From positions 1 through 50,399 of the forward strand of contig JACQDD010000013.1 of assembly GCA_016201265.1 (NCBI GenBank): a DNA stretch of 50,399 bases, in the 5' to 3' direction. Made by a program: the position numbers and the translations under genes. The notes below the pieces were generated by a model. The model ran no database searches and was not told where the DNA came from. It was given only the letters and a program-made list of their open reading frames with translations. Below, in pieces: positions 4,516 to 29,395 of the stretch. Every line of letters begins with the position of its first letter. The first letter of the stretch is position 1. Origin of the DNA: Terriglobales bacterium. Lineage in GTDB: Bacteria; Acidobacteriota; Terriglobia; Terriglobales; Acidobacteriaceae.

Positions 4516-6338
4516 CAGCTCTCTTGGACCATGACCATCGAACTCTTCTTGCGCCGGTTCGACTGCAAGACTTTCTTTCTCAGGCGCAGCGATTTTGGTG
4601 TGACTTCGACAAACTCGTCATCGGCGATGAACTCAATGGCTTGTTCGAGATTGAGATTACGGTAGGGCACCAGGCGGATGGCTTCGTCGGCGGTGGAGGC
4701 GCGCATGTTGGTCAACTTCTTCTCGCGGACGGCGTTGACATCGAGATCGGTATCCTTCGCGTTCTCGCCAATGATCATGCCCTCGTAGAGTTCAATGCCG
4801 GGGCCGACGAAGAGTTCTCCGCGCTCCTGCAGGCCCCAGAGCGCATAGGCAGTCGAAACGCCGGAGCGGTCGGCAACCAGCACGCCGGTCAGGCGGTGCG
4901 GGATTTCACCTTGCCACTCGGTGTAGCCATCGAAGAGCGCGTTCATGACGATGGTGCCGCGGGTATCGGTGAGCAGCTGGCTGCGCAGGCCGATCAGGCC
5001 ACGGCTGGCCACGCGGAACTCGATGCGGACGCGGCCGTAGCCGTGATTGTGCATGTTCGCGACTTCGCCTTTGCGCGACCCGAGTTGCTCCATGACCACA
5101 CCGACAAATTCTTCGGGGATATCGACGGTGAGGTGCTCGACCGGTTCCATCAGCTTCCCGTCAATGCGTTTGGTGACGATCTCGGGCTTGCCCACCATCA
5201 GCTCGAAGCCCTCGCGGCGCATCATCTCAATCAAGATGGAAAGCTGGAGCTCGCCGCGGCCGAGGACTTTGAACGAATCGGTGCTGCCGGTTTCTTCCAT
5301 GCGCAGCGAGACGTTGGTCAGCAATTCCTTTTCGAGGCGCTCGCGCAGATTGCGGGAGGTGACGTAGTTGCCCTCGCGTCCGCAAAACGGAGAGGTGTTG
5401 ATGGTGAACAGCATGGCAATCGTAGGCTCGTCAATGACGATGGGCGGCAGGGGCGCGGGATGTTCGGCGTCGGTGATGGTTTCGCCGATGGTGATTCCCT
5501 CAACGCCCGCGATGGCGACAATATCTCCCAACATTGTTTCGGTGCTGTCCGTGCGCTTCAGGCCGGAAAAGCTGAAGAGCTTGGTGATTTTTGTTTTGTG
5601 AAACGAGCCGTCACGCTTGGCGATAGCGACGTCTTCGCCGGTCTTCAAGGTTCCAGAAAATACGCGGGCGATGGCCAGCCGGCCGAGGTAATCGCTGTAG
5701 TCGAGGTTGGCGACCAGAATCTGCAGCGTGCCGGTGGCGTCGCCGCGCGGAGCGGGAATAGTGTCGACAATCGCCTCGAAGAGGGGACGCAGGTTCTCGC
5801 CGGCCGCTCCCTGATGGACGGCAGCCGTGCCCGCCTTGGCGTTGGTGTAGAGGACGGGGAAGTCAAGCTGGTCTTCGTGAGCGTCCAGATCGATAAAAAG
5901 GTCGTAGATTTCGTTGAGAACTTCCTGGGGGCGAGCGTCGGCGCGATCAATCTTATTAATGACGACAATCGGTGGCAGGTTGGCTTCCAGCGCCTTGCTG
6001 AGCACGTAACGGGTCTGCGGCAGTGGGCCCTCGCTGGCGTCCACGAGCAGCATCACGCCGTCGACCATCTTGAGGGCGCGCTCGACCTCGCCGCCGAAGT
6101 CGCTGTGGCCGGGCGTATCCACGATATTGATCTTGACGTCGTGATAGAAGATAGCCGTGTTCTTGGCGAGGATGGTGATGCCGCGCTCGCGCTCGAGTTC
6201 GTTGGAGTCCATGACGCGCTCGGCGACGGCCTCGTTCTCGCGGAAGGTGCCACTCTGGCGAAGCATGGCGTCCACCAGCGTGGTCTTGCCGTGGTCCACG
6301 TGGGCGATGATGGCGATGTTGCGGATACTTGGGTTCAG
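4515..6338 (-). CDS. typA: GTP-binding translational factor TypA/BipA, CTG start
   Basis: TypA/BipA is an EF-G-like GTPase that binds the ribosome and helps 50S assembly and stress adaptation. G1 is [10 protein letters not shown]3 is [12 protein letters not shown] and G4 is NKIDR. Domain 2, domain 3 and the BipA C-terminal region ([32 protein letters not shown]-like) follow in order. The ORF-track GTG start would fall inside G1. Upstream, an in-frame TAA lies before any ATG, GTG or TTG, and the only sensible initiator is CTG at 6338. It has AGAGGAG at an 8-nt spacing and yields [20 protein letters not shown]. The resulting 607 aa matches the usual BipA length. It is divergent from the TA-like operon and translationally coupled to the zinc-ribbon gene. 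Confidence 0.95.
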
Positions 6339-7490: not shown

Positions 7491-8993
7491 ATGACACCAA
7501 ACGCACCCACAGCAGACCGGGACTCCACTCAGCTCGAAGCCCTCGGCTATGACTCCAAGTTTGATCGCTCCATGAGCCTGTGGGCGAACTTCGCGCTCGG
7601 CTTCACTTACTTGTCGCCTGTGGTGGGAGTGTACACACTCTTCGCCGTCGCCTTTGCCGCTGGCGGTCCGCCGATGTTCTGGACCTACTTGTTTGTCGGA
7701 ATCGGACAACTGTTCGTGGCCATGGTGTTCGGAGAGATCGTTTCTCAATTTCCCATTGCCGGCGGTCTCTATCCCTGGGCCCGACGGCTGGTGGGAAAGC
7801 GCTGGGCGTGGATGGCAGGCTGGGTCTACCTGTGGGCCTTGTGCAGCACCATCGCTGGGGTTGCCGTCGGAGGAGCTCCCTACGTGGCTCAGCTTCTTGG
7901 CCTGAAGGTGGGTCAAGCCGGAGAAGTTGCGATCGCCATCGCCATGATTATCGGCACGACCGCGCTCAACGTCAGTGGCACGAAGCTTCTGGCTCGGGTC
8001 GCCATGTTCGGATTCATTTGTGAGCTGGTGGGCGCGATTGTGGTGGGGGGCTATCTGCTGATCGTGGCGCGGCACCAGAGCTTCTGGGTTCTCTTCCAAA
8101 GCTTTGGCCTCGGCCACGGTCATTACTTCTCCGCCTTCGTGGCGTCGAGCGTGGCCGCGATGTGGTGCTACTACGGCTTTGAAGCTTGCGGCGACGTCGC
8201 CGAAGAGACTCCCGACGCCAGCCGCGCCATCCCCAAGGCGATGCGCATGACCATCTACATTGGCGGCTTCGCGGCCATGCTGGTTTGCCTGGCTTTCGTA
8301 TTGGCAGTGCCCGATCTGAACGCCGTGTTCTCCGGGCGGGATACCGACCCGGTGGTTACCATCCTGAACACCGCTATGGGCCCGATCGGGCTGCGGGCGG
8401 TCATCGCGGTGGTCATGGTTTCCTTCCTTTCCTGCCTTATCAGTCTGGAGGCGGCCACCAGCCGCCTGTTGTTCAGCTACGGCCGCGACCGCATGATCCT
8501 TGGCAGCCATCAGCTCAGCACGCTTTCCGAACGCACGCGAGTTCCGGTGAATGCCTTGCTGTTTGCCGGAATTGTGCCGGCCTTCATTGCGATTACAGGT
8601 TTGTTCCTTAAAAGAATGGTTGAGACGATCGTCGTATCCAGCGCCGCCGGCATCTACGTCGCCTTCCAGATGATTGTCCTGGCGGCCCTGATCGCGCGCG
8701 CCAAGGGCTGGAAACCAAGAGGAGCGTTTCGTCTGGGCATCTGGGCGTGGCCAGTCAATTTGGCGGCGCTCACCTATGGTGTCCTGGCCATCATCAACAT
8801 GGTTTGGCCGCGTTCTCCCCAGGACCCCTGGTATAGCAACTACGGAATGATGGTAGTGTGGGTGGCCGTATTCGCTATCGGCCTGTTCTACGCGGCCCTG
8901 TTCCGGCCCTACGATCACGGCGATGCACCCGAGGGCGATGCTCACCTCGCCCACTTGGACGTGCCGCTGCAAGCCGAGAGCAGCCTCGATTAG
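7491..8993 (+). CDS. APC-superfamily amino acid/amine permease
   Basis: The product is 500 aa. I chose the ATG at 7491 (MTPNAPTADRDS) because AAAGGA lies upstream and the conserved N-terminal 'LGYDSKFDRSMSLWANFALGFTYLSPVVGVY' then begins at the right distance. About 12 hydrophobic helices are visible, with the APC helix-1 break (SPVVGVYTLF) and 'GGLYPWARRLVGKRWAWMAGWVY' in helix 3. The closest recognised class is the GABA/choline-type permease (BAT1/GabP-like) that couples substrate to H+ uptake. It is the first gene of the amine-catabolism island. The substrate is inferred from the neighbours. Confidence 0.88.
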   Translation: MTPNAPTADRDSTQLEALGYDSKFDRSMSLWANFALGFTYLSPVVGVYTLFAVAFAAGGPPMFWTYLFVGIGQLFVAMVFGEIVSQFPIAGGLYPWARRLVGKRWAWMAGWVYLWALCSTIAGVAVGGAPYVAQLLGLKVGQAGEVAIAIAMIIGTTALNVSGTKLLARVAMFGFICELVGAIVVGGYLLIVARHQSFWVLFQSFGLGHGHYFSAFVASSVAAMWCYYGFEACGDVAEETPDASRAIPKAMRMTIYIGGFAAMLVCLAFVLAVPDLNAVFSGRDTDPVVTILNTAMGPIGLRAVIAVVMVSFLSCLISLEAATSRLLFSYGRDRMILGSHQLSTLSERTRVPVNALLFAGIVPAFIAITGLFLKRMVETIVVSSAAGIYVAFQMIVLAALIARAKGWKPRGAFRLGIWAWPVNLAALTYGVLAIINMVWPRSPQDPWYSNYGMMVVWVAVFAIGLFYAALFRPYDHGDAPEGDAHLAHLDVPLQAESSLD

Positions 8994-15624: not shown

Positions 15625-15668
15625 CCCAATCTAATGGCCCACCGGCCTGAGTCTTAACTGGAGACACG

Positions 15669-17048
15669 ATGTACCCCGCACTGCAAAAAGAGCTCGAGAT
15701 CTTCGAGCATCGCACCCCGAAGTCTGCTGAGGCGCATAAGAAAAATCTGAAGCGCCTCCCCCTCGGCGTGGCCAGCAATTACCGCGCCTACGATCCTTAT
15801 CCGATCTTCGTCCAAGACGCGCAGGGCAGCCATTTCCGCGATCTCGACGGCAACCAATATCTGGACCACAATCTCTGTTTCGGCGCGCTGATGGCGGGGC
15901 ATTGCCATCCCGCGGTGATGAAGGCAGTTGAAAAACGGCTTTCCACCGGCACCATGCTCGGCATGCCGCACAACATGGAGTGGGAACTGGCGGAAGAAAT
16001 CTGCAACCGCTTTCCGGTGGAAATGTGCCGCTTCGGCAACAGCGGCACCGAAGCCACCATGCACACCATCCGCTTGGCTCGCGCTGCCACCGCACGCGAC
16101 AAGATCATCAAGTTCGAAGGGGGCTATCATGGCCTGCACGACTCCGCCCTGGTCAGCGTCAAGCCGCATCCGCCCAAAGACGACTTCGGCGACATCAAAA
16201 ACCCGCAACCAGTCCCGGGCGGACTAGGCGTGCCCAAGGCGAGTATCGCCAACGTTTTGATTGCGACTTTCAACGATCTGGAGACGGTCGAGCGCCGCTT
16301 CAAAGAAAATCCCGGCGAGATTGCCGCCATCATCCTCGAGCCGATCATGATGAACGTCGGGCTCTGCATGCCACAGAAAGGATTTCTCGAAGGCCTGCGG
16401 CAGTTCTGCGACAAGTACGGCGCGTTGCTGATCTTCGACGAAGTAAAAACCGGCGCGAAGCTTTGCTGGGGCGGCGCTTCAGAATACTTTGGCGTCATTC
16501 CCGACATGATCTGCCTGGCAAAATCGATTGGCGGGGGATTGCCGCTGGCTGCCTTCGGCACCCACAAGCGCGTCATGGACCTCATCTCCGACCACAAGGT
16601 TTTCCACGGCGGCACTTACAACACCAACCCGGTTTCGATGGCCGCCGGCCTGGCCACTTTCCGCGAGGTGCTCACGCGCGAGAACTACGCGCATGTGGAC
16701 AAGCTCAGCAAGAAAGTGACCGACGGCTACAGGAAGATTGTCGCGAAAGCTGGTCTGCAAGCCTACGTGGTGAGCGCGGGCGTGAACGGCGCACTGATGT
16801 TCTACCCGGAGGAGATCCGCAACTACCGCGACTGGTTGCCGATTGATGTTGACCTGTGGCGGCACTACTGGTTCGGCATGGTGAATCGCGGCGTGATGTG
16901 CCAGCCCTACTGGTGGGACGAGCAGTGGACGATTTCGGTCCAACACACCGAGGGCGACATTGAGCAGCACCTGGCGGTATTCGATGATATTGCCGGTTCG
17001 CTCGCCGCCGCCCAGCACGAGCGGTTGGGAGCAGTGGCGGCACATTGA
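15669..17048 (+). CDS. Class III aminotransferase, GSA-aminomutase-like
   Basis: The product is 459 aa; GGAG precedes the ATG. It has the PLP fold type I signatures NSGTEA (residues ~124-129, phosphate site), GYHG (~152-155), FDEVK (~256-260, ring-nitrogen Asp) and AKSIGGGLPLAAFG with the Schiff-base Lys near 285. These and the overall order match glutamate-1-semialdehyde aminomutase relatives that in catabolic clusters act as omega-amino-acid or amine transaminases rather than in haem synthesis. The receptor, a permease and an aldehyde dehydrogenase flank it, which supports a catabolic role. Confidence 0.88.
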   Translation: MYPALQKELEIFEHRTPKSAEAHKKNLKRLPLGVASNYRAYDPYPIFVQDAQGSHFRDLDGNQYLDHNLCFGALMAGHCHPAVMKAVEKRLSTGTMLGMPHNMEWELAEEICNRFPVEMCRFGNSGTEATMHTIRLARAATARDKIIKFEGGYHGLHDSALVSVKPHPPKDDFGDIKNPQPVPGGLGVPKASIANVLIATFNDLETVERRFKENPGEIAAIILEPIMMNVGLCMPQKGFLEGLRQFCDKYGALLIFDEVKTGAKLCWGGASEYFGVIPDMICLAKSIGGGLPLAAFGTHKRVMDLISDHKVFHGGTYNTNPVSMAAGLATFREVLTRENYAHVDKLSKKVTDGYRKIVAKAGLQAYVVSAGVNGALMFYPEEIRNYRDWLPIDVDLWRHYWFGMVNRGVMCQPYWWDEQWTISVQHTEGDIEQHLAVFDDIAGSLAAAQHERLGAVAAH

Positions 17049-17055
17049 AGCTGTG

Positions 17056-17106
17056 CGAGCCCGGGTCTTCGACCCGGGCAGGCCGGGTCAGAGACCCGGC
17101 CCCACA
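17056..17106. repeat. Two-hairpin repeat element, copy 1
   Basis: It is located 8 bp after the aminotransferase stop. Hairpin 1 is GCCCGGGT-CTTCG-ACCCGGGC. Hairpin 2 is GCCGGGTC-AGA-GACCCGGC and is followed by CCACAC. The same order, loops and trailing CCACAC recur at 36656-36709 and, in expanded form, at 35424-35505. The stem sequences differ but remain fully paired. Confidence 0.7.
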
Positions 17107-17148
17107 CAGACCCGGCTCCACATGGGCCAGCAAGTCTTGGAGTGACTT

Positions 17149-18597
17149 TTGTCTACCCAACCCGGCGACAAGCAGCCGCACCTCAAGCGCGTTCTCGGAC
17201 GCTGGGACCTGGTGCTGCTCTTTGTTGTCGCCGTTTTCAACTTGAACGTTGTGCCGTCGATCGCGGCCAACGGCGGCGTCACCGTCTGGCTCTGGATCAT
17301 CTCGTTGCTGCTTTTCTTCTGGCCGCAGGGAATCGCCGTCATTGAACTGGCCCAGCGCTACCCCGGCGAAGGCGGTGTGTACCTGTGGGCCAAAGAAGTT
17401 TTCGGCGACTTTCATGGGTTCCTCTCCGGCTGGTGCTACTGGACCAACAACATGCTCTACGTGCCGACGGTGATGCTGTACTTCGTCGGCGTGTCGGTTT
17501 TTGCCCTGGGCCCCGGCCACGCCGCTCTCGCCGACAACAAGAACTTCGCCATGATCGCGTCGGTGACGTTGCTGGCGTTTCTGACAGTGCTGAACATCGT
17601 CGGCCTGGGTGTGGGCAAGTGGCTGAACAATCTCGGCGCCATCGGAACGTTCGTTGCCGCGGCCGTGTTGATCGGTCTGGGATTGACAGTATTTTCGCGC
17701 TTCGGAACCCCGGTCACGGCAACCGATTTTCACATTCCCGCCGACCCCAAGTTTGTCCTGAATTCGTTCGGCGTAATTTGTTTTGGTTTGGTCGGGCTGG
17801 AACTCGCCTCTGTGATGGGCGACGAGATTCGTGATCCGAAAAGAACCTTGCCCGGCGCCGTAGCCTGGGGCGGCCTGATTTCGGGCGCGCTCTATATCGG
17901 CGCAACGCTCACTTTGCTCGTCGCAGTCGGCAAGAACGAGATCAGCGTGCTGCAGGGCATCGTGCAGGCCGTCAGCCACATGGCTGGTAAAGTTGGCGTG
18001 GCATGGATCATCACACCGTTTGCGGTCATGCTCAGCTTGTCCATCGCCGGCATCGGCTCGGCCTGGATGGGAGGCTCGGCCCGCATCCCATTTGTCGCGG
18101 GACTTGATTCCTACATGCCGCCGTGGCTCGGGAAAATTCATCCGAAGTATGCAACGCCCCATGCCGCGCTGATCGTGCAAGCGATCGTCTCGCTGATCCT
18201 GATCGTGATCAACTTCACGGCTTCGGGCGGGGTGCAGGAAGCGTTCCAGACCATGCTCTCGCTGGCCGTGGTCTTACAGCTCGTGCCGTTCCTGTACGTG
18301 TTTGCCGCGCTGCTGAGATTCGCCTTGCGCCGGGATTTCGCCGAGGTCCGCTACCGCCGCGGCACGCTGATCTTTGCCGGCGCGAGCGGATTGCTGACCA
18401 CAACCCTGGGAATCGCCCTTGCCTTCTTCCCCGCGAAGCAGATCACTTCGCTGTGGTGGTACGAAGTAAAGATGGTGGGATTTACGGTGTTCTTTCTCGC
18501 GCTGGCCGCGTTCTTCTTCTTCGTGTACGGGAGGCTCAAGACGCCGCGAGGGGCCGCGGTCGAGGAGAAGAATTTGGGAGCAGTCAGGTCCACGTAG
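17149..18597 (+). CDS. APC-superfamily permease, second copy in the island
   Basis: The product is 482 aa. It starts at TTG 17149 (x-STQPGDKQP) with GGAG at 7 nt; no ATG is available before helix 1. About 12 transmembrane helices are visible. The helix 1 region is 'LLFVVAVFNLNVVPSIAANGG', with a short acidic motif 'VIELAQRYPGEGGVYLWAKEVFG' after helix 2 as in glutamate/GABA antiporter or YfnA-like carriers. It is distinct in sequence from the 7491 permease, so the island carries two carriers, perhaps for substrate entry and product exchange. Specificity cannot be read from sequence. Confidence 0.87.
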   Translation: MSTQPGDKQPHLKRVLGRWDLVLLFVVAVFNLNVVPSIAANGGVTVWLWIISLLLFFWPQGIAVIELAQRYPGEGGVYLWAKEVFGDFHGFLSGWCYWTNNMLYVPTVMLYFVGVSVFALGPGHAALADNKNFAMIASVTLLAFLTVLNIVGLGVGKWLNNLGAIGTFVAAAVLIGLGLTVFSRFGTPVTATDFHIPADPKFVLNSFGVICFGLVGLELASVMGDEIRDPKRTLPGAVAWGGLISGALYIGATLTLLVAVGKNEISVLQGIVQAVSHMAGKVGVAWIITPFAVMLSLSIAGIGSAWMGGSARIPFVAGLDSYMPPWLGKIHPKYATPHAALIVQAIVSLILIVINFTASGGVQEAFQTMLSLAVVLQLVPFLYVFAALLRFALRRDFAEVRYRRGTLIFAGASGLLTTTLGIALAFFPAKQITSLWWYEVKMVGFTVFFLALAAFFFFVYGRLKTPRGAAVEEKNLGAVRST

Positions 18598-18638
18598 GGG
18601 CGGACGCCCGCGTCCGCCCGGCCGGGCGAAGCTCGGCC
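18598..18638. repeat. Paired GC-rich hairpins
   Basis: GGGCGGACGC/GCGTCCGCCC is followed directly by GGCCGGGC-GAA-GCTCGGCC (one G-T pair). The pair lies between the permease stop and the ALDH ribosome site. The two-hairpin build recalls the 17056 element, but loops and stems differ. It may attenuate or stabilise the polycistronic mRNA. Confidence 0.5.
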
Positions 18639-18667
18639 ATAGCAGAGATTTTGGAAGGAGGCTTTCT

Positions 18668-20149
18668 ATGCCAAGCGGAGTCAAGTCCGAAGTTCGTACC
18701 TATCAGATGTACATCAATGGCGAATGGGTGGACAGCGTGTCCAACAAGACCTCTGCCATCATCGATCCATCCACGGAAGAGGTGATCGCGCAGGTGCCGT
18801 CGGGCAACGCGGAGGACGTAAACCGGGCGGTGGCCGCGGCCAAGGCCGCTTTTGAAACCGGCCCGTGGGCTTCGACGACGCCGCAGGAGCGCGGCCGGGT
18901 CCTGTTCCGTCTAGCGGAAAAAATTCGCCAGAACGCGGCCATGCTGGCGGAAATCGAATCGCGCAACTGCGGCAAGCCGATCGTCGAGGCGGAATACGAC
19001 ATTAACGACGCCGCCACCTGCTTCGAGTATTACGGCGGGATGGCCACGAAAATTCTGGGAACGGTCAACCCGGTTCCGGACAACGCCGTCAGTCTGACCA
19101 TGAAGGAACCGATGGGCGTGGCCGCCATGATCACGCCGTGGAACTATCCGCTGGTGATGGCGACGTGGAAGATGGCGCCGGCGTTGGCTGCGGGGTGTAC
19201 TTGTATTCTGAAACCGCCGGGGGTCACGCCGCTGACCGTGCTGGAACTGGCGAATTGGCTCCCGGAAGTAGGCCTGCCGCCGGGCGTGCTGAACATCGTT
19301 ACGGGATCGGGGTCGGTCTGCGGCACGGCGCTGACGCAGCACCCGGACGTGAACAAGATCGCTTTCACCGGCAGCAATGAAGTAGGCAAGGTCATCATCA
19401 AGCAGGCTGCGGACACCTTGAAGCGGGTTACCATGGAGTTGGGCGGCAAGTCCCCCAACATCTTTTTCGCCGACGCGGACTTCGAAAATGCCATTGACGG
19501 CGCGCTCTTCGGCGTCTTCATCAACCAGGGAGAAGTATGCTCGGCGGGCAGCCGCATCCTGGTCGAGCGGTCCATCTACAAGAAGTTCGTCGAGGCCATG
19601 ACCGAGAAGGCCAAGAGAATCCGGCTCGGTCCGCCGCTCGAGCGCGAAACCAAGATGGGCCCCATGGTGAGCAAGGACCAGTACGAGACGGTGCGCTCCT
19701 ATCAGGAGATTGGCAAGAAAGAAGCCAAGATGTCCATCGGTGGCGGCCGGGCGGAGAAATTCGCCAAGGGCTACTACATCGAACCCACGATTTTCTATGA
19801 CGTGGACAACCACGCCCGGATTGCGCAAGAAGAGATCTTTGGGCCGGTGGCGGCCGTGATTCCGTTCGACGACGAAAAAGACGCGCTCAAGATCGCGAAC
19901 GACACGCCCTACGGGCTGGCCGCCGCCGTCTGGACGCGCGATATTTTCAAGGCCATGCGCGTGGTGAAGGCGTTGCGCGCCGGCATCGTGTGGGTGAACC
20001 ACATGCAGCCGACGTATGTGGAAGCGCCCTGGGGCGGCTACAAGCAGTCCGGCTATGGCCGTGAACTCGGGCCGTGGGGCATCGAAGAGTATCTGGAAAG
20101 CAAACAGGTGCACATCAACCTGAACGAGCAACCGATCGGCTGGTACTGA
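18668..20149 (+). CDS. NAD-dependent aldehyde dehydrogenase (aminoaldehyde/betaine-aldehyde type)
   Basis: The product is 493 aa with a strong AAGGAGG ribosome site. The motifs are ITPWNYP (Asn near 159), FTGSNEVGK in the dinucleotide-binding region, MELGGKSPNI (general base Glu near 257) and NQGEVCSAGSRI (nucleophile Cys near 291). 'EEIFGPVAAVIPFDDEKDALKIAND' and 'WGGYKQSGYGRELG' close the fold. Best fit is the betaine-aldehyde or gamma-aminobutyraldehyde group, which would oxidise the aldehyde made by the neighbouring transaminases. Positions 181-184 read LKPP where many relatives have KPSE. Confidence 0.9.
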   Translation: MPSGVKSEVRTYQMYINGEWVDSVSNKTSAIIDPSTEEVIAQVPSGNAEDVNRAVAAAKAAFETGPWASTTPQERGRVLFRLAEKIRQNAAMLAEIESRNCGKPIVEAEYDINDAATCFEYYGGMATKILGTVNPVPDNAVSLTMKEPMGVAAMITPWNYPLVMATWKMAPALAAGCTCILKPPGVTPLTVLELANWLPEVGLPPGVLNIVTGSGSVCGTALTQHPDVNKIAFTGSNEVGKVIIKQAADTLKRVTMELGGKSPNIFFADADFENAIDGALFGVFINQGEVCSAGSRILVERSIYKKFVEAMTEKAKRIRLGPPLERETKMGPMVSKDQYETVRSYQEIGKKEAKMSIGGGRAEKFAKGYYIEPTIFYDVDNHARIAQEEIFGPVAAVIPFDDEKDALKIANDTPYGLAAAVWTRDIFKAMRVVKALRAGIVWVNHMQPTYVEAPWGGYKQSGYGRELGPWGIEEYLESKQVHINLNEQPIGWY

Positions 20150-20153
20150 AGAC

Positions 20154-20244
20154 CAGTGGTCAGTGGCCAGTGGTCAGTGGTCAGTAGAACTGACCTTGGC
20201 GCTGGCAGACTTTGCTGAGAACTGAGAACTGACAGCTGAGAACT
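20154..20244 (+). repeat. Two heptamer tandem-repeat tracts upstream of gabT-like gene
   Basis: Tract 1 (20154-20188) is CAGTGGT, CAGTGGC, CAGTGGT, CAGTGGT, CAGTAGA. Tract 2 (20217-20244) is GAGAACT, GAGAACT, GACAGCT, GAGAACT. Both have exact 7-bp periods. Tract 1 begins a few bases after the ALDH stop, and tract 2 runs up to 5 bp before the next ATG and so replaces the usual ribosome-binding region. Confidence 0.85.
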
Positions 20245-20249
20245 GAACT

Positions 20250-21617
20250 ATGTCCACCATTCAACTGCGCACCCCAATTCCCGGACCGCGCTCGCAAGAG
20301 CTGATGAAACGCCGCAACGCTGCCGTGGTGCAGGCTGCCTATCACGCTACGCCGGTTTTTATCGCGAAGGCCGAAGGGGCGGTCGTCGAAGACGTCGACG
20401 GCAACCGCCTGATTGATTTCGCTGGTGGCATCGGCTGCCTCAACACCGGTCACCGCGCTCCCGCCGTAGTCGAAGCCATTCGCCGCCAGCTCGACCGCTT
20501 TCTGCACACCAGTTTCAACGTGCTGCCCTACGAGAGCTACGTCGCGGTCTGCGAGAAGCTCAACGCGCTCACGCCCGGAAAGTTTTCCAAGAAAACTTTG
20601 CTGGTCAACACCGGCGCTGAGGCTACCGAAAACGCCATCAAAATCGCGCGCAGCTACACCAAGCGGCCTGCGATCATCAGCTTTGAAGATGCTTTCCATG
20701 GCCGCACCTATATGGCCATGGCCGTCACCAGCAAAACACATCCTTACAAGGCAGGATTCGAGCCCTTTCCGGGCGATGTCTACCGCATCCCGTACGCGTA
20801 CTGCTATCGCTGCTCCTACTCGATGAAGTATCCGTCCTGCGAAGTGCATTGCGCCAAGCACATTGAAGATACTTTCAAGCGGGTGGTGGCATCAGAGTCC
20901 GTCGCAGCCGTGATCGTGGAGCCGATCCTGGGTGAAGGCGGGTTCGTTACGCCGCCGGCGGAGTTCTTCCCGACTCTGGCCGCGATCTGCCGCAAGCACG
21001 GCATTCTCCTGATCGCCGACGAAGTCCAGACCGGCTTCGCCCGCACCGGCGCGCTCTTCGCCTGCGAGCGGCTGGGACTCGAGCCCGATCTGATCTGCAT
21101 GGCAAAATCGCTGACGGGCGGCTTGCCCATGGCCGCGGTGACTGGACGCGCTGAGATTATGGACACTCCCGCTTCCGGCCAACTCGGAGGAACCTTCAGT
21201 GGCAATCCGGCGGCCTGCGAAGCCGCCCTCGCCGTGCTCGACATCATCGAGAAGCAAGACCTCTGCGCCCGCGCCAACGTGCTCGGCGAGCGCTTCCGCA
21301 AGCGCGCAGCGAAGTGGCAATCACAGTGGGAACTGATCGGCGAATTCCGCGGACTCGGCGCCATGCAAGCGCTCGAACTCGTCCGCTCGAAAGCCACGCG
21401 CCAGCCCGCTGACGAAGAAACCAAACAAGTGGCACAATACTGCTACGAGCATGGGCTTGTGCTGATCACGGCCGGTTCCTACGGCAACGTGATTCGCCTG
21501 CTGATGCCGCTGGTGCTGACCGACGCGCAAATGGACGAAGCCATGGACGTGCTGGAAGCGGCGCTCGCCCACGTCGCTGCCGAGAAGAAAGGTGCACTTG
21601 CGGAGCAGTCAGCATAA
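20250..21617 (+). CDS. gabT: 4-aminobutyrate aminotransferase-like enzyme
   Basis: The product is 455 aa. PLP motifs are NTGAEATENA (~120), FHGRTY (~149), EPILGEGG, ADEVQTGFARTG (~256) and CMAKSLTGGLPMAAVTG with Lys near 286. It contains the Cys-rich 'YCYRCSYSMKYPSCEVHCAK' insert common in GABA and polyamine transaminases. The product would be succinic semialdehyde or a related aldehyde acid, with glutamate formed from 2-oxoglutarate. The start is preceded by a GAGAACT heptamer tract and has no classical SD. The gabT symbol is a best fit; related diamine transaminases cannot be excluded. Confidence 0.88.
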   Translation: MSTIQLRTPIPGPRSQELMKRRNAAVVQAAYHATPVFIAKAEGAVVEDVDGNRLIDFAGGIGCLNTGHRAPAVVEAIRRQLDRFLHTSFNVLPYESYVAVCEKLNALTPGKFSKKTLLVNTGAEATENAIKIARSYTKRPAIISFEDAFHGRTYMAMAVTSKTHPYKAGFEPFPGDVYRIPYAYCYRCSYSMKYPSCEVHCAKHIEDTFKRVVASESVAAVIVEPILGEGGFVTPPAEFFPTLAAICRKHGILLIADEVQTGFARTGALFACERLGLEPDLICMAKSLTGGLPMAAVTGRAEIMDTPASGQLGGTFSGNPAACEAALAVLDIIEKQDLCARANVLGERFRKRAAKWQSQWELIGEFRGLGAMQALELVRSKATRQPADEETKQVAQYCYEHGLVLITAGSYGNVIRLLMPLVLTDAQMDEAMDVLEAALAHVAAEKKGALAEQSA

Positions 21618-21628
21618 TCATTACTGCC

Positions 21629-22042
21629 ATGAAACTTCTCACCACAGAGTCACAGAGACACAGAGAGAACGAGGAGCGGGATCCTCGAACCGGCCCAATC
21701 ATCGGCGCGGCTATTGAAGTGCACCGCCAACTTGGTCCGGGGTTGCTGGAGTCCGCCTACGAAGAGTGCTTGTGTCACGAACTGCATCTACGCGGGCTGA
21801 CTTTTGAGCGCCAGGTGGACCTTCCGGTCTCGTATAAGGGCTTCCGTCTTGATTGTGGATATAAGATGGACCTGGTCGTCGAGCAACAGGTGGTTCTCGA
21901 ACTCAAGTGTGTGGAAAAACTTCTGCCGATCCACGAGGCGCAGCTTCTCACATATCTCAAACTCTCGGGGAAGCGCGTCGGCCTGCTGATCAACTTTAAT
22001 GTTTCATTACTAACGCAGGGGATCATCAGAAGAGTTTTGTGA
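21629..22042 (+). CDS. GxxExxY protein (PD-(D/E)xK-like)
   Basis: The product is 137 aa. The family motif is 'GPGLLESAYEECLCHEL', followed by 'VSYKGFRLDCGYKMDLVVEQQVVLELKCVE', where the Asp and the ELK form a PD-(D/E)xK-like nuclease pattern (PF13366-type). The first ~18 residues (MKLLTTESQRHRENEE) are translated from a CACAGAGN repeat, so the functional core probably starts near 'GPIIGAAIEVH'. The gene sits alone inside a perfect 27-bp inverted repeat and breaks the order of the aminotransferase cluster. Function of the family is not established. Confidence 0.88.
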   Translation: MKLLTTESQRHRENEERDPRTGPIIGAAIEVHRQLGPGLLESAYEECLCHELHLRGLTFERQVDLPVSYKGFRLDCGYKMDLVVEQQVVLELKCVEKLLPIHEAQLLTYLKLSGKRVGLLINFNVSLLTQGIIRRVL

Positions 22043-22072
22043 TTCCTCTGTGTCTCTGTGACTCTGTGGTGA
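21639..22072. mobile_element. GxxExxY cassette bounded by 27-bp perfect inverted repeats
   Basis: The left arm (21639-21665, starting TCACCACAGAGTCACAGAGA) is the exact reverse complement of the right arm (22046-22072). Each arm is built from CACAGAGN octamers. The only gene inside is the GxxExxY ORF, which encodes no recognisable transposase. The cassette separates two aminotransferase genes of one cluster. I call it a candidate mobile cassette; mobility is not shown. Confidence 0.6.
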
Positions 22073-22103
22073 AATAGTTCTTGGGTTCTGAATCGAGGAA
22101 CGG

Positions 22104-23289
22104 ATGACCACTGCCACCGCTACCCCCACCATGACCGGCCAGGAGATGGTCGACCTCACCAGGAAGCACACTTTGTTCGAATGGTCGGCGCAGTCGAAGG
22201 TCGATCCTATTCCCGTCGCGCGCGCCAAGGGCATTCATTTCTGGACGCCGGAAGGGAATCGCTGAGATCACACCGGGTGACATTGATACTTTCTTCTTTA
22301 CTAACGGCGGCGCCGAAGCCAACGAGAACGCCATCAAGATTGCCCGCTTCTTCACCGGACGCCACAAGATCATGGCGCGCTACCGCTCCTATCACGGCGC
22401 CACCGCCGGAGCCATCAGCCTTACGGGCGATCCGCGGCGCTGGGCTGCCGAGCCGGGCATTCCGGGTGTCGTGCACGTGCTCGACCCCTACCACGGCATC
22501 GAGCGCGGATGGGATTCGGCCGAAACCTCGCTGGCGATGATCGAGGAAACCATGCAGCTCGAAGGCCCGCACACCATCGCCGCCTTCATCCTCGAGACGG
22601 TTGTCGGCACCAACGGCATCCTCGTTCCGCCCGACGGCTACATGCAAGGCGTGCGCAAGCTCTGCGACAAGTACGGGATCCTCATGATCGCCGACGAAGT
22701 CATGGCCGGTTTTGGCCGCACCGGGGAGTGGTTCGCCATTGACCACTGGAAGGTTGTACCCGACCTCATCTGCATGGCCAAGGGACTGACCTCGAGTTAC
22801 CTGCCGCTGGGCGCAGTGGGCATGCGCCATCACATCGCGCAGCATTTCCAGGACAAAGTCTTCTACGGAGGCCTGACCTACAACTCGCATCCCATGGGAT
22901 GCGCGGCCGCGCTCGCGACCATTCGTGTGTATGAAGAAGACAACCTGATCGAGAACGCCCGCAAGATGGGCGCGATCATGAAAGACCTGGGAGCGGAACT
23001 GCAGAAGAAGCATCCGTCGGTCGGCGCAGTGCGTTCGATCGGACTGTTCGGCATCGTCGAACTGGTTCGCAGCCGCAAGACACGGCAGCCGATGGCTCCA
23101 TTCAACGGCACATCAGAGGAAATGGCGGCGCTGGGAAAATTCTTCCGCGAGAACGGACTCTACACAATCGTGCGCTGGAACAGCTTCTACACCAACCCGC
23201 CGCTGTGCATCAACGAGCAGCAACTGCTCGAAGCCTTCGCCATCATTGACAAAGGCCTCGAGATCACCGACAAGGCGGTGACGGACTGA
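22104..23289 (+). pseudogene. Class III aminotransferase with internal frame-breaking deletion
   Basis: From ATG 22104 the frame reads MTTATATPTMTGQEMVDLTR... to 'FWTPEGNR' and stops at TGA 22263. One frame over, starting at 22264, it resumes as 'EITPGDIDTFFFTNGGAEANENAIK' and continues to the normal C terminus (IADEVMAGFGRTGEW, CMAKGLTSSYLPLG with the PLP Lys). In relatives the stretch between these points is about 40-50 residues long (my recollection of the family), including the FLDF..GHGHP region. So a segment has been lost together with the frame. The ORF-track start at 22372 is internal. It is either a true pseudogene or an assembly error. Confidence 0.8.
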
Positions 23290-23290
23290 A

Positions 23291-24010
23291 CTACGAGGTT
23301 ACGGAATAAGCTGCGCACAGCGGGTTCTGCTCCGCCGCGCTCTCCCGCCGATCCGGAACTTCCTTGTCGCTACTGGCGAGAAGGTTCTCCAGCTTGTGCT
23401 GAGTACTCTGCTGCAGTTGCCGGAATCGGATACCGGTGCCGCAGCCGTACACGCTGTGTGTGATCGTCCCGTGCATCCACACTCTTTCCTCTTCCAACCA
23501 GAGGGCAAGGCTCACTTCGGTCAGCGGTTCCATGGCATGCGGCACCTGTACGCGGCAGCCGCCGTCGCTGACATCGCTCGCGGTCACCCACATGGGAGGC
23601 TGGTCGCCGCGGATTCTGATCTCAACCGCAATTTCGCACTCATAGCGCGCCTGCTGTCTCCGGCTGGTCACGCGCGGGCGGACATACTCATCGGGACCGG
23701 AAGCCGGCAGCCAGCAATCCACGGTCGCCGGAACCGGACCGGCGGCTGCCAGTCCAATCTGCCTTCCGTCGCCGGAACCTGATTGTTCCCAAATGACGTG
23801 GAACCGCCGCGTAGTTTCGTTACAGCGCAACGCGACCACGTCTCCCACCTTGACGCCGCAACTGACGTCTTCGAGCAGCGCTCCATTGCGGCTCATGTTG
23901 AGTACGCGGACACGGTCCAGGAAGGCGCGGCCCTTGGCGTCCATGCCACACAGACTGGCCGGAAGGGTCATTAGTATCCGGGGCTGGCGTCGGCATCCCA
24001 TAGTCGTCAC
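23291..24010 (-). CDS. Tandem PilZ-domain protein (c-di-GMP effector)
   Basis: The product is 239 aa. The start is GTG 24010 or ATG 24001 (AAGGA lies upstream). Two PilZ-like halves are visible. Half 1 has RRQPR (residues ~7-11) and NMSRNG (~38-43). Half 2 has RQQAR (~118-122) and DVSDGG (~146-151). These are the RxxxR and (D/N)xSxxG ligand motifs of c-di-GMP receptors, the second copy being canonical. It lies head-to-head with a processive glycosyltransferase operon, which suggests that c-di-GMP binding controls polysaccharide synthesis, as PilZ modules do in BcsA and Alg44. Its 3' end abuts the aminotransferase pseudogene. Confidence 0.88.
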   Translation of the reverse strand: MTTMGCRRQPRILMTLPASLCGMDAKGRAFLDRVRVLNMSRNGALLEDVSCGVKVGDVVALRCNETTRRFHVIWEQSGSGDGRQIGLAAAGPVPATVDCWLPASGPDEYVRPRVTSRRQQARYECEIAVEIRIRGDQPPMWVTASDVSDGGCRVQVPHAMEPLTEVSLALWLEEERVWMHGTITHSVYGCGTGIRFRQLQQSTQHKLENLLASSDKEVPDRRESAAEQNPLCAAYSVTS

Positions 24011-24460
24011 GAATCCTTCGCTTTGAATTGATACGCGCCTTACAGCGCGCGGGGGGATGAGTCCTGGCTGCTGTCCGCCCGCGTCGCGGTTACAGAAGTA
24101 ACCAAAGTTGGGCGGTCCTGCAGCACAACTCCAAACGCCTTAGGAGCATGCACGCTGCCATTTCCACCAGGTGACAACGCAAGGACTTGCCCCGGAACTG
24201 CAAGGGAAGTCTGCAAGATCATGCAGGTCGGGGCATCGGAGTTGAAATTCCATACTTACAAGCCAAGAGTATCTAGGTCGCAGAAGTCCCGCTCTCAGGC
24301 GCCGATAGTCTCTAATGCGGCCCGTTCTCGCAAAGATGGCCGCTCGCGAATTAGAAACTGCTCAGAATGGCTCTAGTCCAGGAAGGACGAATCTAGATTT
24401 CAGGGAGTAGTCGTGGGCCTCGCCGCGGCGATGGAATCCCGCGTCTGAGAGGATAGGTTA
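24011..24460. promoter_or_regulatory. Divergent control region between pilZ-like and GT2 genes
   Basis: This 450-bp spacer holds no credible ORF and must carry the promoters of both divergent genes. I see a 10-bp palindrome AATCTAGATT at 24390-24399 but no confident -35/-10 pair and no recognisable c-di-GMP riboswitch. A 60-codon minus-strand ORF (24040-24222) has no family resemblance. Confidence 0.45.
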
Positions 24461-25747
24461 ATGCCGGTCGGTGCAAGTTGCTTGATGCTCGTGATCGCGG
24501 TACTGGTCGCCAACGTTCTGAAGCACGTGTTGGCGGGACTGGTGAAGCTGACCGTTTCCGCGGCTCGGCCTCGCAAAGACTATTCGCTCCAGCCAAGCGT
24601 GAGTATTCTTTTGCCCTGCTACAACGAGGGCAAGACGGTGTACGACACGGTGGAAAGCATCAGCCGCAGTAACTACCCGAACCACAAGTTCGAAATCATT
24701 GCGATTGATGACTACTCCACTGACGATAGTTATCAGTGGTTTCTCAAGTCGCAAGAAGACTTCACTAACATCAGGATCAGAGTCAGCCGGAACCCGCAAA
24801 ATCAGGGAAAAGCCCGGACGGTGTGCAATGCACTGAAGCAATCGGAGGCCGAGATTGTTCTCTCCATCGATTCGGACTGCATCTTCCATCCCGAGGCCAT
24901 CCGCGAACTGGTGGCTTGTTTCGTGGACCCCAAGATCGGCGCGGTGGGCGGCGCCGTCGGTGTGCGAAACGTCAACGACAACATCGTGACCGCCATTCAG
25001 ACTTTTGTCTATTACACGAACTTCCGTCTGATGAAGGTGCTGGAGAACTGGACACGATCGGTCATCTGCATCAGCGGCTGCATGTTCGCGGTGCGGCGAG
25101 ATCTGTTTCTGAACCTCGAGCCCAAGGTCCGGGGCCGCCGCTGGCTGGGTATCGAGGTGAATGACGGGGAAGACCGCTTTCTGACTCACCAGATACTTCT
25201 CGCAGGGTACGGCACGGTTCTCAACAGCAGCGCGCAATGCTGGACGACGGTGCCGAACACCCTGCCGGGGCTGTTCAAACAGCAGATCCGGTGGCAGCGG
25301 TCCGGGGTGCGGGATTTCCTGCTCACGCTCCAGACCCTGCCCCAGCATGTGTGGACCCAGCACCCGAACACCATTTACAACCTGGTGATTCCGACACTCG
25401 CCGCGATGTCCAGCGTGGTGGTGATGCTGATTCTCATGTTCCCCTACAGTTTCTTCCTCTTTTCGGTGGCCCCTGGGCTCTTCCTTCTGTATGGAGCGGG
25501 AGCCGCGACCTTCGACGCTCTCGTCCGGAAGCACAACCCCGAGCAGGCCGTGACCAGCCCGCTCCGGCTGGCTGCCTTCGCGGTCTGGATCGTCGCCGGG
25601 CGCCTGATCGAGATCATTGCCATGCTGACCCTCGACTCCCGTGACTGGGGAACTCGGGCCAAGGCAGTTGCGCTGCAGGAATCGGCACAGGAGGAATCCC
25701 CGTCGCAAGCATTGGAGCTGGATGTGGCAACCGCCGCGGGTGATTAA
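24461..25747 (+). CDS. Processive family-2 glycosyltransferase (polysaccharide synthase)
   Basis: The product is 428 aa. There is one N-terminal TM helix (~7-30), then a GT-A domain: 'SILLPCYNEGKT', DDYS (~83-86), DxD as SIDSDC (~136-140), NDGEDR (~234-239) and QQIRW (~274-278). This D,D,D,QxxRW set defines processive synthases such as hyaluronan, cellulose and poly-GlcNAc synthases. Two to three TM helices follow (~305-345 and ~365-390), forming the translocation channel. It has no fused PilZ domain, which fits the separate divergent PilZ protein. Its stop overlaps the next ATG (TAATG). The polymer made is unknown. Confidence 0.92.
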   Translation: MPVGASCLMLVIAVLVANVLKHVLAGLVKLTVSAARPRKDYSLQPSVSILLPCYNEGKTVYDTVESISRSNYPNHKFEIIAIDDYSTDDSYQWFLKSQEDFTNIRIRVSRNPQNQGKARTVCNALKQSEAEIVLSIDSDCIFHPEAIRELVACFVDPKIGAVGGAVGVRNVNDNIVTAIQTFVYYTNFRLMKVLENWTRSVICISGCMFAVRRDLFLNLEPKVRGRRWLGIEVNDGEDRFLTHQILLAGYGTVLNSSAQCWTTVPNTLPGLFKQQIRWQRSGVRDFLLTLQTLPQHVWTQHPNTIYNLVIPTLAAMSSVVVMLILMFPYSFFLFSVAPGLFLLYGAGAATFDALVRKHNPEQAVTSPLRLAAFAVWIVAGRLIEIIAMLTLDSRDWGTRAKAVALQESAQEESPSQALELDVATAAGD

Positions 25748-26826
25748 TGAGGAACGAATTCTTGCTTTACGTGAGTGGAGGGCTTCACACAGCGTTGCAC
25801 GTGCTACTCAGCAAAGCTGTCCTGTTGCTGTACCGCGTGTTTGCGATCGTGGCGCTCTATGGTGTGCTCGTCGGCGTGTTCGCCTACGCGGTCATGTTGG
25901 GAGTCTATGCGATCAATACTTCGTGGATCGCTCCCGTGATCCTTGCTCCCACCGATCAAAGAAGCCTGGATGTCACCGAGCGGCTCATTACCACGCGTAA
26001 CAGCCTGGAAGATCTGACGCTGGAAATGAACCGGCAGAAGAGCTTGCTGGCTGAAATGAAGCAGCACCGGGCGGCACTTAAGTCTCTACAGCCGGAGTTG
26101 GAAGCGGCCGTCGTCCGCGAGCGACAACATAACAAAGTGGCGGCAAAGGATCTGCTGCGGCTGAACCAACAGAAACGCGCGGACATTGACAAGACGCGCG
26201 GCCTGGTGGACGACGTGAACGGAGTAGAAGCAGAAATTCAGCGAGACCTGGCGGCCAACCTGATCACCAAGGGAGAGGCGGCGATTCAGCGTGCGCAGCT
26301 CAATCAGACTCGCAACGCCGCCACCGACAGCCAGATCAACGAAGTCTTGTTGCGCGACAGCGTCCTGCAGAAGAGCACGATCGGCACCCAGATCCTCGAT
26401 GTTCTCGATAAGCGGGCTGAGCTCGAATCCCAGATCGCCCAGCTTGACATCAGCATTGCCATAGCCGGACAAGAAATCGCGACGGTTCAAGCGCAGGTGG
26501 AGCGGCTCAACAAAGCCATCAACCTGGCAACCCAGACGCCCTACTTCCTCGCCGTGTCGGGCGAAGAGACGCTGCACTTCGCCTTCGTCCCCTACGACAA
26601 TCGGACGAGCGTCTGGGTGGGTGCTCCAGTGTACGACTGCTATCTCCACGTGCTTTTGTGCCGGCAGGTGGGCACGGTCAAGCGCATCTTTGAGAGTGAA
26701 GAAAAAACTCAGAATCCGATCTTCCGAACGGATATGCGCGGGTTCCTCATCCAGCTCGACTTGCAGAATGAAGAATCCGCAAAGTCCAAGACCTTGTTTC
26801 TGAACCATAGGCCACTGCTCCTGTAA
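25747..26826 (+). CDS. Inner-membrane coiled-coil adaptor (HlyD-like)
   Basis: The product is 359 aa. A long hydrophobic segment (~25-58) anchors the N terminus. Then a periplasmic region rich in heptads (~75-265, for example LEDLTLEMNRQKSLLAEMKQ and AELESQIAQLDISIAIAGQE) forms a helical hairpin. A beta-rich C-terminal part follows with 'VWVGAPVYDCYLHVLLCRQVG', similar in plan to the barrel/lipoyl part of membrane-fusion proteins. It is translationally coupled to the GT2 synthase (TAATG). Alg44 and BgsB are known periplasmic adaptors of this general type. Homology is inferred from architecture, not from a motif. Confidence 0.75.
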   Translation: MRNEFLLYVSGGLHTALHVLLSKAVLLLYRVFAIVALYGVLVGVFAYAVMLGVYAINTSWIAPVILAPTDQRSLDVTERLITTRNSLEDLTLEMNRQKSLLAEMKQHRAALKSLQPELEAAVVRERQHNKVAAKDLLRLNQQKRADIDKTRGLVDDVNGVEAEIQRDLAANLITKGEAAIQRAQLNQTRNAATDSQINEVLLRDSVLQKSTIGTQILDVLDKRAELESQIAQLDISIAIAGQEIATVQAQVERLNKAINLATQTPYFLAVSGEETLHFAFVPYDNRTSVWVGAPVYDCYLHVLLCRQVGTVKRIFESEEKTQNPIFRTDMRGFLIQLDLQNEESAKSKTLFLNHRPLLL

Positions 26827-26835
26827 GGAGACCAT

Positions 26836-27879
26836 TTGAAGTCAGTAATTCTCGCACTGTGTCTAGTGTCCACCGACGCCTTCGCCAACGAGGATCAGGA
26901 TGCCTATTGCCAGTATGTGACGGAGCAGGCGGCGGCCGAGCGCGATCGCCTCCGCACGCCCAACGTTGTAGCGGGGCTGACTCAGCCCAACTCCGGTCTG
27001 CCGATGCAGGTGGTGTGGGGAGTCTCCAGCAGCGTGGCCAACAACCGCAAAGCAGTCCTGACCATGCAGGTCGCACGCAAGAACTGCCAGCTCTACCAGA
27101 CAGCGGTAGAGGCCCAGATGCATGTTCAGTACGCCCTGCCGGAGATCGAGAGAGACATCCTGCAACATCGCCTGGCACTGATTGAGCAGGCGACGGCCCA
27201 ATTGGAGATTCTCCTGGCCGCCAATATGAAGCTGGTGGAAGCGCAGAACGTGACTCGCCCTGCCTTGTACCCTTTGAAAGCGGCCAAGGTGAGACTGAAT
27301 TCCAGCCGCGCCACCACCTCGATCGAAATCACTTCGAGGTATGTGCCCCAACTCAGCTCCACGCCTTTGCGGGATTTAATCGTAAGTAAGCTCGACAGCG
27401 ACCGGGAAGCCCAGAAAGCCATGGCCAAGTTAGAGCGGCAAAACAATTGGGACCTGGCGCTCTCGGTGGGGGCACATCACCAGGTCCGTCCTTTGTCCCA
27501 GGAGAAGGTCGCAGCCTATGGCGAGATCAGCTTCAGCTACAACCTGGCAGACTGGGCGATCGGCCGCCATCTCCGCGATGCGACTGAGTCCTATGGTCGA
27601 TGGAAGGCAGTGCAGGCAGGGGATGTCGCGTATGCGGCGGAGATCCTTCGGCGCCAGATCGGGCAAACTATCGCCATTCAGGAAGGCCAATTGGCCTTGT
27701 TGCGGGATGAGGACAAAGAAATTGACCAGGACATCGAGCACCTCGGCGGGATCAACACCAATGCGGCAGTCGGCTTCCGCAATCAATTGATTGCCGATCA
27801 GTTGGTCCTCCGCGTCGATGTCGGCGACATGGTCTTTCGTTTAGACAGGCTGCGTGCCTTTCTGCGCGACAACTTCTGA
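26836..27879 (+). CDS. Exported coiled-coil protein, TolC-like candidate exporter
   Basis: The product is 347 aa. It starts with TTG, AAGGAG at 5 nt. The signal peptide is MKSVILALCLVSTDAFA. The mature chain is mostly long amphipathic helices ('YALPEIERDILQHRLALIEQ', 'EAQKAMAKLERQNNWDLALS'), interrupted by short strand-like stretches 'LSVGAHHQVRP' and 'YGEISFSYNLADW', which is the alternating helix/strand plan of TolC-type outer-membrane factors. It is shorter than TolC (~430-470 aa), so it may be a reduced relative or a periplasmic partner. It begins 9 bp after the adaptor gene, completing a synthase-adaptor-exporter operon. Confidence 0.65.
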   Translation: MKSVILALCLVSTDAFANEDQDAYCQYVTEQAAAERDRLRTPNVVAGLTQPNSGLPMQVVWGVSSSVANNRKAVLTMQVARKNCQLYQTAVEAQMHVQYALPEIERDILQHRLALIEQATAQLEILLAANMKLVEAQNVTRPALYPLKAAKVRLNSSRATTSIEITSRYVPQLSSTPLRDLIVSKLDSDREAQKAMAKLERQNNWDLALSVGAHHQVRPLSQEKVAAYGEISFSYNLADWAIGRHLRDATESYGRWKAVQAGDVAYAAEILRRQIGQTIAIQEGQLALLRDEDKEIDQDIEHLGGINTNAAVGFRNQLIADQLVLRVDVGDMVFRLDRLRAFLRDNF

Positions 27880-28027
27880 GGAGCTCCGGCGGGTGGCGGC
27901 CCTTCTGATCGACCTGATTCTCGAGGGGCGCCCGCCGCCACACAAGCATGCGAGATCCTTCGCGGCCAAGAGCGCCGCTCAGGTGACCGCAGCGGGCTCC
28001 CGCTTCGCTCACGCCCGCTAGGCGCGC

Positions 28028-29182: not shown

Positions 29183-29256
29183 AGTTGTCGGTTCGAACGG
29201 GGACGGTGCACGCGGCAGTATAAAGCATCGAAACGAGGGTGCTAAATGCGAATTTC

Positions 29257-29395
29257 TCACCGCAGAGCCACAGAGACACAGAGAAACCCGTCCGAGAAAT
29301 CTCGTCGCAGAGGGATTCTTGTTCCGCCTTTGCAACTCTCGCCGCCGACCGATCTTTACAAATCGAGCATGTCTTTCTCTGTGTCTCTGTGGTGA
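29257..29395. repeat. CACAGAGN inverted-repeat pair without an ORF
   Basis: The left arm begins TCACCGCAGAGCCACAGAGA at 29257; the right arm is its near reverse complement ending at 29395. The ~90 bp between them code for nothing I recognise. The arms match those of the GxxExxY cassette with a few changes. It looks like an internally deleted or minimal form of the same element, upstream of the 29448 gene and the divergent peptidase gene. Confidence 0.75.

Follow-up and report, generated by a model that had tools for sequence, protein, structure and literature searches.

A 50,399-nt stretch of DNA from a Terriglobales bacterium (contig JACQDD010000013.1, positions 1 to 50,399; hereafter the window), part of a draft genome of 300 contigs that is 76% complete, carries at 24461-27879 three consecutive genes coding for a processive-type family 2 glycosyltransferase (GT2), a periplasmic-adaptor-like protein, and a short TolC-like outer-membrane factor (OMF). 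The GT2 stop and the adaptor start have one base in common (TAATG at 25747), the gap between the adaptor and OMF genes is 9 bp, and a gene for a tandem PilZ protein lies in divergent orientation at 450 bp from the GT2 gene. This arrangement of four open reading frames (ORFs), with its strands, overlap, and gap, is as described in an earlier note on the same DNA, which proposed all four genes as a candidate undescribed synthase-export unit controlled by cyclic di-GMP (c-di-GMP). Scans for promoters, terminators, and repeats were uninformative, and the features of the locus are the following:

23291-24010, reverse strand: tandem PilZ protein of 239 aa, with two stretches matched by Pfam PilZ; a resident neighbor, judged to lie outside the unit.
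24232-28027, no strand: exchanged segment carrying the trio, delimited by DNA comparison with loci L118 and L119 and by their gene content.
24461-25747, forward strand: GT2 of the processive type, candidate polysaccharide synthase of 428 aa, assigned from Pfam, NCBIfam, PDB, and motifs.
25747-26826, forward strand: periplasmic-adaptor-like protein of 359 aa, assigned from an AlphaFold2 model and Foldseek; no Pfam family.
26248-26277, forward strand: codons of the predicted hairpin tip of the adaptor (LAANLITKGE, residues 168-177), placed by the pattern in relatives and the turn of the model.
26836-27879, forward strand: short TolC-like OMF of 347 aa with a TTG start and a likely signal peptide, assigned from AlphaFold2 and Foldseek.

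The GT2 matches the Pfam families PF13641 (Glyco_tranf_2_3, 5.9e-31) and PF03142 (Chitin_synth_2, 2.4e-19), and its closest relatives in the PDB are hyaluronan synthases. Among the curated NCBIfam models the best are PgaC and then NodC, both far under their cut-offs (140 bits against 422 for the PgaC model TIGR03937), while the CelA model gives 32.5 bits against a cut-off of 699. The catalytic motifs pointed out in the earlier note hold beyond the window: an alignment of 21 relatives (A6) shows no variation in DD, DSD, GEDR, and QQxRW. The window protein reads QQIRW and carries WGTR near the C-terminus. The hallmark of synthase-dependent secretion, namely a membrane GT2 with DD, DSD, (T/G)ED, and QxxRW, is present in the same alignment, and no PilZ domain was found in the GT2 by Pfam.

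The two downstream proteins have no family at threshold in sequence searches of Pfam, NCBIfam, and PDB chains, and their assignment is based on structure prediction. The AlphaFold2 model of the adaptor (input alignment of 24 sequences; predicted local distance difference test, pLDDT, 81; predicted template modeling score, pTM, 0.49) shows an N-terminal membrane helix, a helical hairpin at residues 71-262 (helices 71-169 and 175-262), and a C-terminal beta domain; the anchor, hairpin, and beta domain of adaptors are thus predicted, at this pTM and with no evident lipoyl domain. Foldseek against the PDB places EmrA at the top (1.8e-6) and MacA next, with low TM-scores. The predicted hairpin turn (residues 170-174) falls inside LAANLITKGE, a pattern that 23 of the 24 relatives have at the same place and that resembles LGTQYISKQE of Escherichia coli AcrA. 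Pfam detects no PilZ domain in the adaptor or its 23 relatives.

The model of the OMF (input alignment of 25 sequences; pLDDT 89.4, pTM 0.77) contains strands at 43-49, 58-66, 205-216, and 226-235 amid paired helical hairpins, that is, the TolC repeat plan, with the two-fold hairpin repeat and the four beta strands per protomer of OMFs. All 39 Foldseek matches in the PDB with E <= 0.001 are OMFs, the best at 2.9e-9. The Pfam family OEP (PF02321) has no match in the window protein and a sub-threshold one in 1 of 25 relatives (the L028 member, 19.7 bits against a cut-off of 22). Profile comparisons with hhalign of the two families against single EmrA, AcrA, and TolC sequences were not significant, with the AcrA alignment landing on the tip, and the weak sequence hits of the adaptor and OMF to SMC, bS20, and YfdX are best read as chance matches of coiled coils. 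The structure predictions that the earlier note had called for hence point to the adaptor-like fold, closest to EmrA and from the weaker model, and to the TolC-like plan that it had suggested for the fourth protein.

A single scan of 84,980 species genomes, performed with a GT2 pair alignment and two GT2 peptide patterns and therefore giving a lower bound of the distribution, identified a distinct GT2 clade at 43-63% identity, the remaining hits being at <= 35%. The clade includes loci of Acidobacteriota (L008-L025, L034) and of Burkholderiaceae (L026-L033, L052); L020 is labelled Betaproteobacteria, yet its proteins resemble acidobacterial ones. In all of these loci whose contig is long enough, genes for the adaptor and the OMF-like protein accompany the GT2 gene. 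The order is GT2-adaptor-OMF in Acidobacteriota and Cupriavidus, GT2-OMF-adaptor in Ralstonia, and adaptor-OMF followed by GT2 in Paraburkholderia and Caballeronia. Pairwise distances within one family track those within the other two (correlations of 0.94-0.98), and they do so as well when only the acidobacterial loci are considered (Mantel P 0.0005); together with the co-occurrence, this indicates that the genes of the trio travel together. A chance co-occurrence is dismissed because the trio is found repeatedly, in related loci from two phyla, and the conservation beyond close relatives, which the earlier note had set as a check, is found with a shuffled gene order. In two contigs of metagenome-assembled genomes, the adaptor frame is broken (L009, 7124-8101; L013, 6493-7661), and in L013 the OMF frame (7665-8698) is broken at the site of an unknown base; either assembly error or decay may account for these broken frames.

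The genes accompanying the trio give hints about the product. In all nine Burkholderiaceae loci the block contains a nucleotide-sugar dehydrogenase, and in most of them a GH16/beta-glucanase-like protein; the Caballeronia dehydrogenase is above the cut-off of TIGR03026, with TviB as the best equivalog, under its own cut-off. Among the acidobacterial loci, L034 has a GH16 gene as the immediate upstream neighbor of the GT2 gene. These partners point to a secreted glycan, perhaps containing uronic acid in Burkholderiaceae, and the polymer is perhaps a beta-glycan, judging from the partner genes of the relatives. Nucleotide-sugar dehydrogenases are common, and counting them in four genomes that carry the trio was therefore uninformative.

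Taken together, these data favor, with a probability of about three in four, the reading of 24461-27879 as a self-contained operon for synthase-dependent polysaccharide secretion, equipped with its own adaptor-TolC-like conduit. From sequence, gene neighborhood, and predicted folds, we infer the following route: the GT2 would polymerize a UDP-sugar and pass the chain across the inner membrane, the adaptor, anchored in the inner membrane, would span the periplasm via its helical hairpin and dock on the tip of a short TolC-like trimer, and the trimer would release the polymer outside the cell. Several points weigh against this reading. By sequence, the adaptor and the OMF fall into no known family, the predicted OMF does not reach the length of solved TolC-family proteins, and the adaptor model is moderately confident only (pTM 0.49), with low TM-scores to PDB entries and no evident lipoyl domain. 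Moreover, the RLS/RLT docking motif of the hairpin tip has been published as RxxxLxxxxxx(S/T) (PMC3391258), and the leucine spacing of the adaptor tip is one residue short of it, so that the likeness of the tip to the docking motif is suggestive only.

The history of the locus separates the trio from the PilZ gene. Two congeneric genomes, G014 and G016, have orthologues of the window PilZ protein (63% and 58%), encoded in the same interval between the aminotransferase and S58 peptidase genes; at this site the trio is absent and three unrelated genes stand in its place, coding for a PF04185 phosphoesterase and for two proteins without a Pfam family, one a membrane protein and the other about 200 aa long (L118, 11408-14037; L119, 5581-8163). 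The DNA similarity to the window ends at 24231 (L118) or 24002 (L119) and resumes just beyond the trio at 28030 (L118) or 28028 (L119), marking an exchange at this locus. Since the orthologues keep their place without the trio, the PilZ gene resides at the site independently of it.

The adaptor family is patchy and not phylum-wide: profile searches detected it in 2 genomes both among 24 of the genus and among 396 Acidobacteriota, and one of the 2 is each time the genome of the window. The copy in the congeneric G012 shares 84% identity with copies from other genomes and 52% with that of the window, whereas identities for the flanking genes of congeners are mostly 75-93%. Near the trio there are recombinase domains in L034 and L019 and, by inspection, integrase-like and terminase-like ORFs in G012; plasmid searches returned one relative on an unannotated Paraburkholderia replicon. 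In GC content and codon usage, the trio is close to the neighboring genes, which neither supports nor excludes a recent transfer. Most likely, the trio moves horizontally between bacteria as a block, and in the window it was exchanged into a site beside a resident PilZ gene.

The position of the PilZ gene bears on the alternative put forward in the earlier note, in which the four genes form one unit, with the tandem PilZ protein, though encoded separately, acting in trans as a c-di-GMP-responsive activator of the GT2 or the adaptor. The PilZ duplication that it described is confirmed: Pfam matches two stretches (1.8e-14 for the whole protein), and both copies, as read from the sequence, have intact RxxxR and (D/N)xSxxG motifs for c-di-GMP (R7-R11/N38-G43 and R118-R122/D146-G151). 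The head-to-head gene arrangement suits this alternative, as does L009, where a different PilZ protein of 315 aa (4809-5753) is encoded directly upstream of the GT2 gene; by a rough Poisson estimate from rounded gene and PilZ counts, these two adjacent cases compare with 0.19 expected (P 0.016, post hoc). The 315-aa protein has, by eye, a receiver-like N-terminal stretch, Pfam reporting PilZ only. However, the PilZ gene stays in place without the trio in the two congeneric genomes, and most trio loci lack a nearby PilZ: PilZ ORFs are 3 of the 84 scanned around acidobacterial trios, all in L009 and L013, which are also the only other trio loci with a PilZ within about 4 kb, and none was found in Burkholderiaceae loci with a local hidden Markov model. 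Most of the acidobacterial genomes contain 20-50 PilZ domains, and with such abundance a chance PilZ neighbor is unsurprising; once lineages are counted once, the frequency of PilZ within 4 kb is not above expectation. The adjacency excess is a weak, after-the-fact signal, and control in trans is kept as an unlikely rival, the PilZ gene being probably just a neighbor. Similarly doubtful is the broader proposal that a phylum-crossing GT2-adaptor-TolC conduit with two undescribed families repeatedly settles beside stand-alone PilZ proteins that serve as interchangeable c-di-GMP switches in trans. Of the unit first proposed, the conserved synthase-adaptor-exporter trio stands, with its predicted adaptor- and OMF-like folds, and the membership of the PilZ protein is not supported.

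It is also improbable that the product of the GT2 is a glycolipid or, as with NodC, a short oligosaccharide, and that the adaptor and OMF export this small product. NodC is the second-best curated model of the GT2 and the adaptor-OMF pairs among the known fold relatives export mostly small molecules, but PgaC and hyaluronan synthases score at least equally, and the GH16-like partner genes suit a long glycan better. Finally, an efflux conduit that happens to adjoin an unrelated glycosyltransferase gene is very improbable: the fold relatives are indeed drug-efflux parts, yet the operon has no RND, MFS, or ABC transporter gene, and the link to the GT2 clade holds over two phyla, several gene orders, and correlated divergence.

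On the other side of the PilZ gene, the block at 15651-23289 is conserved in G014 and G016 and looks like an amine or amino-acid catabolic cluster. It includes class-III aminotransferase-like ORFs at 15651-17048, 20250-21617, and 22372-23289 (only the last was run against Pfam), as well as ORFs resembling a permease (17149-18597) and an aldehyde dehydrogenase (18668-20149). A protein of the PD-(D/E)XK superfamily (PF13366, 2e-44), present in L119 (68%) and not found in L118, is encoded at 21629-22042, with an aminotransferase gene on either side. Dispersed repeats of about 30 bp at 21639-21666, 22041-22072, and 29256-29286 also match L119 and have a protein-like reading, TESQRHRE.

Returning to the secretion operon, its logic resembles that of Xcs, for which an XcsA-XcsB-TolC model of cyanobacterial cellulose was put forward (Maeda 2018, as reviewed in PMC12430437): a GT2 synthase, a HlyD-like adaptor, and a TolC-like channel are proposed to form one conduit, a separate-component arrangement that the earlier note had left out of the known relatives. 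According to PMC12430437, that complex awaits validation, in part owing to the scattered location of its genes. TolC does not share an operon with the Xcs genes, whereas the three conduit genes are adjacent here; Xcs has XcsA variants with a PilZ or PCR domain and the endoglucanase XcsC, while the window GT2 has no PilZ and is nearer to the PgaC, NodC, and hyaluronan synthase models than to CelA. It is therefore not the CelA-family synthase with a C-terminal PilZ that typifies Bcs and Xcs. The rhizobial BgsBA system for mixed-linkage beta-glucan also joins a GT2 and a HlyD-domain protein in one operon, which, in contrast to the window trio, is bicistronic and has no OMF gene (PMC9495663, PMC5567048). 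BgsA binds c-di-GMP through a non-PilZ C-terminal domain and has no PilZ domain (PMC5567048), so that its citation in the earlier note as an example of a fused PilZ does not hold.

By sequence, the closest relatives of the GT2 are the synthases of poly-N-acetylglucosamine (PgaABCD) and the hyaluronan/NodC synthases, but no PgaA-, PgaB-, or PgaD-like gene lies beside it. The alginate system (Alg8, Alg44, AlgK, AlgE) is alike in combining a GT2 synthase with a membrane-anchored adaptor-like protein, and alginate clusters include a nucleotide-sugar dehydrogenase and an enzyme of the glycan-cleaving type, as do the Burkholderiaceae relatives of the trio; here, conversely, the adaptor has no PilZ, a TolC-like exporter replaces AlgE/AlgK, and modification genes are absent. 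The window proteins resemble the EmrA/MacA adaptors and the TolC/OprM/CusC OMFs in their predicted folds, less surely so for the adaptor, and in AcrA-like residues at the predicted adaptor tip; they differ in having no significant match to the Pfam families of these proteins at cut-off, a shorter OMF, and no drug pump gene.

No description of a GT2-adaptor-OMF trio was found in the open-access literature. We infer that its products act as a synthase-dependent system whose conduit is of the tripartite type. Because Pfam has no name for the adaptor and OMF families, surveys of biofilm polymers can easily overlook operons of this kind. Being compact and present in culturable Burkholderiaceae as well as in Acidobacteriota, the operon makes a direct synthase-adaptor-TolC route directly testable.

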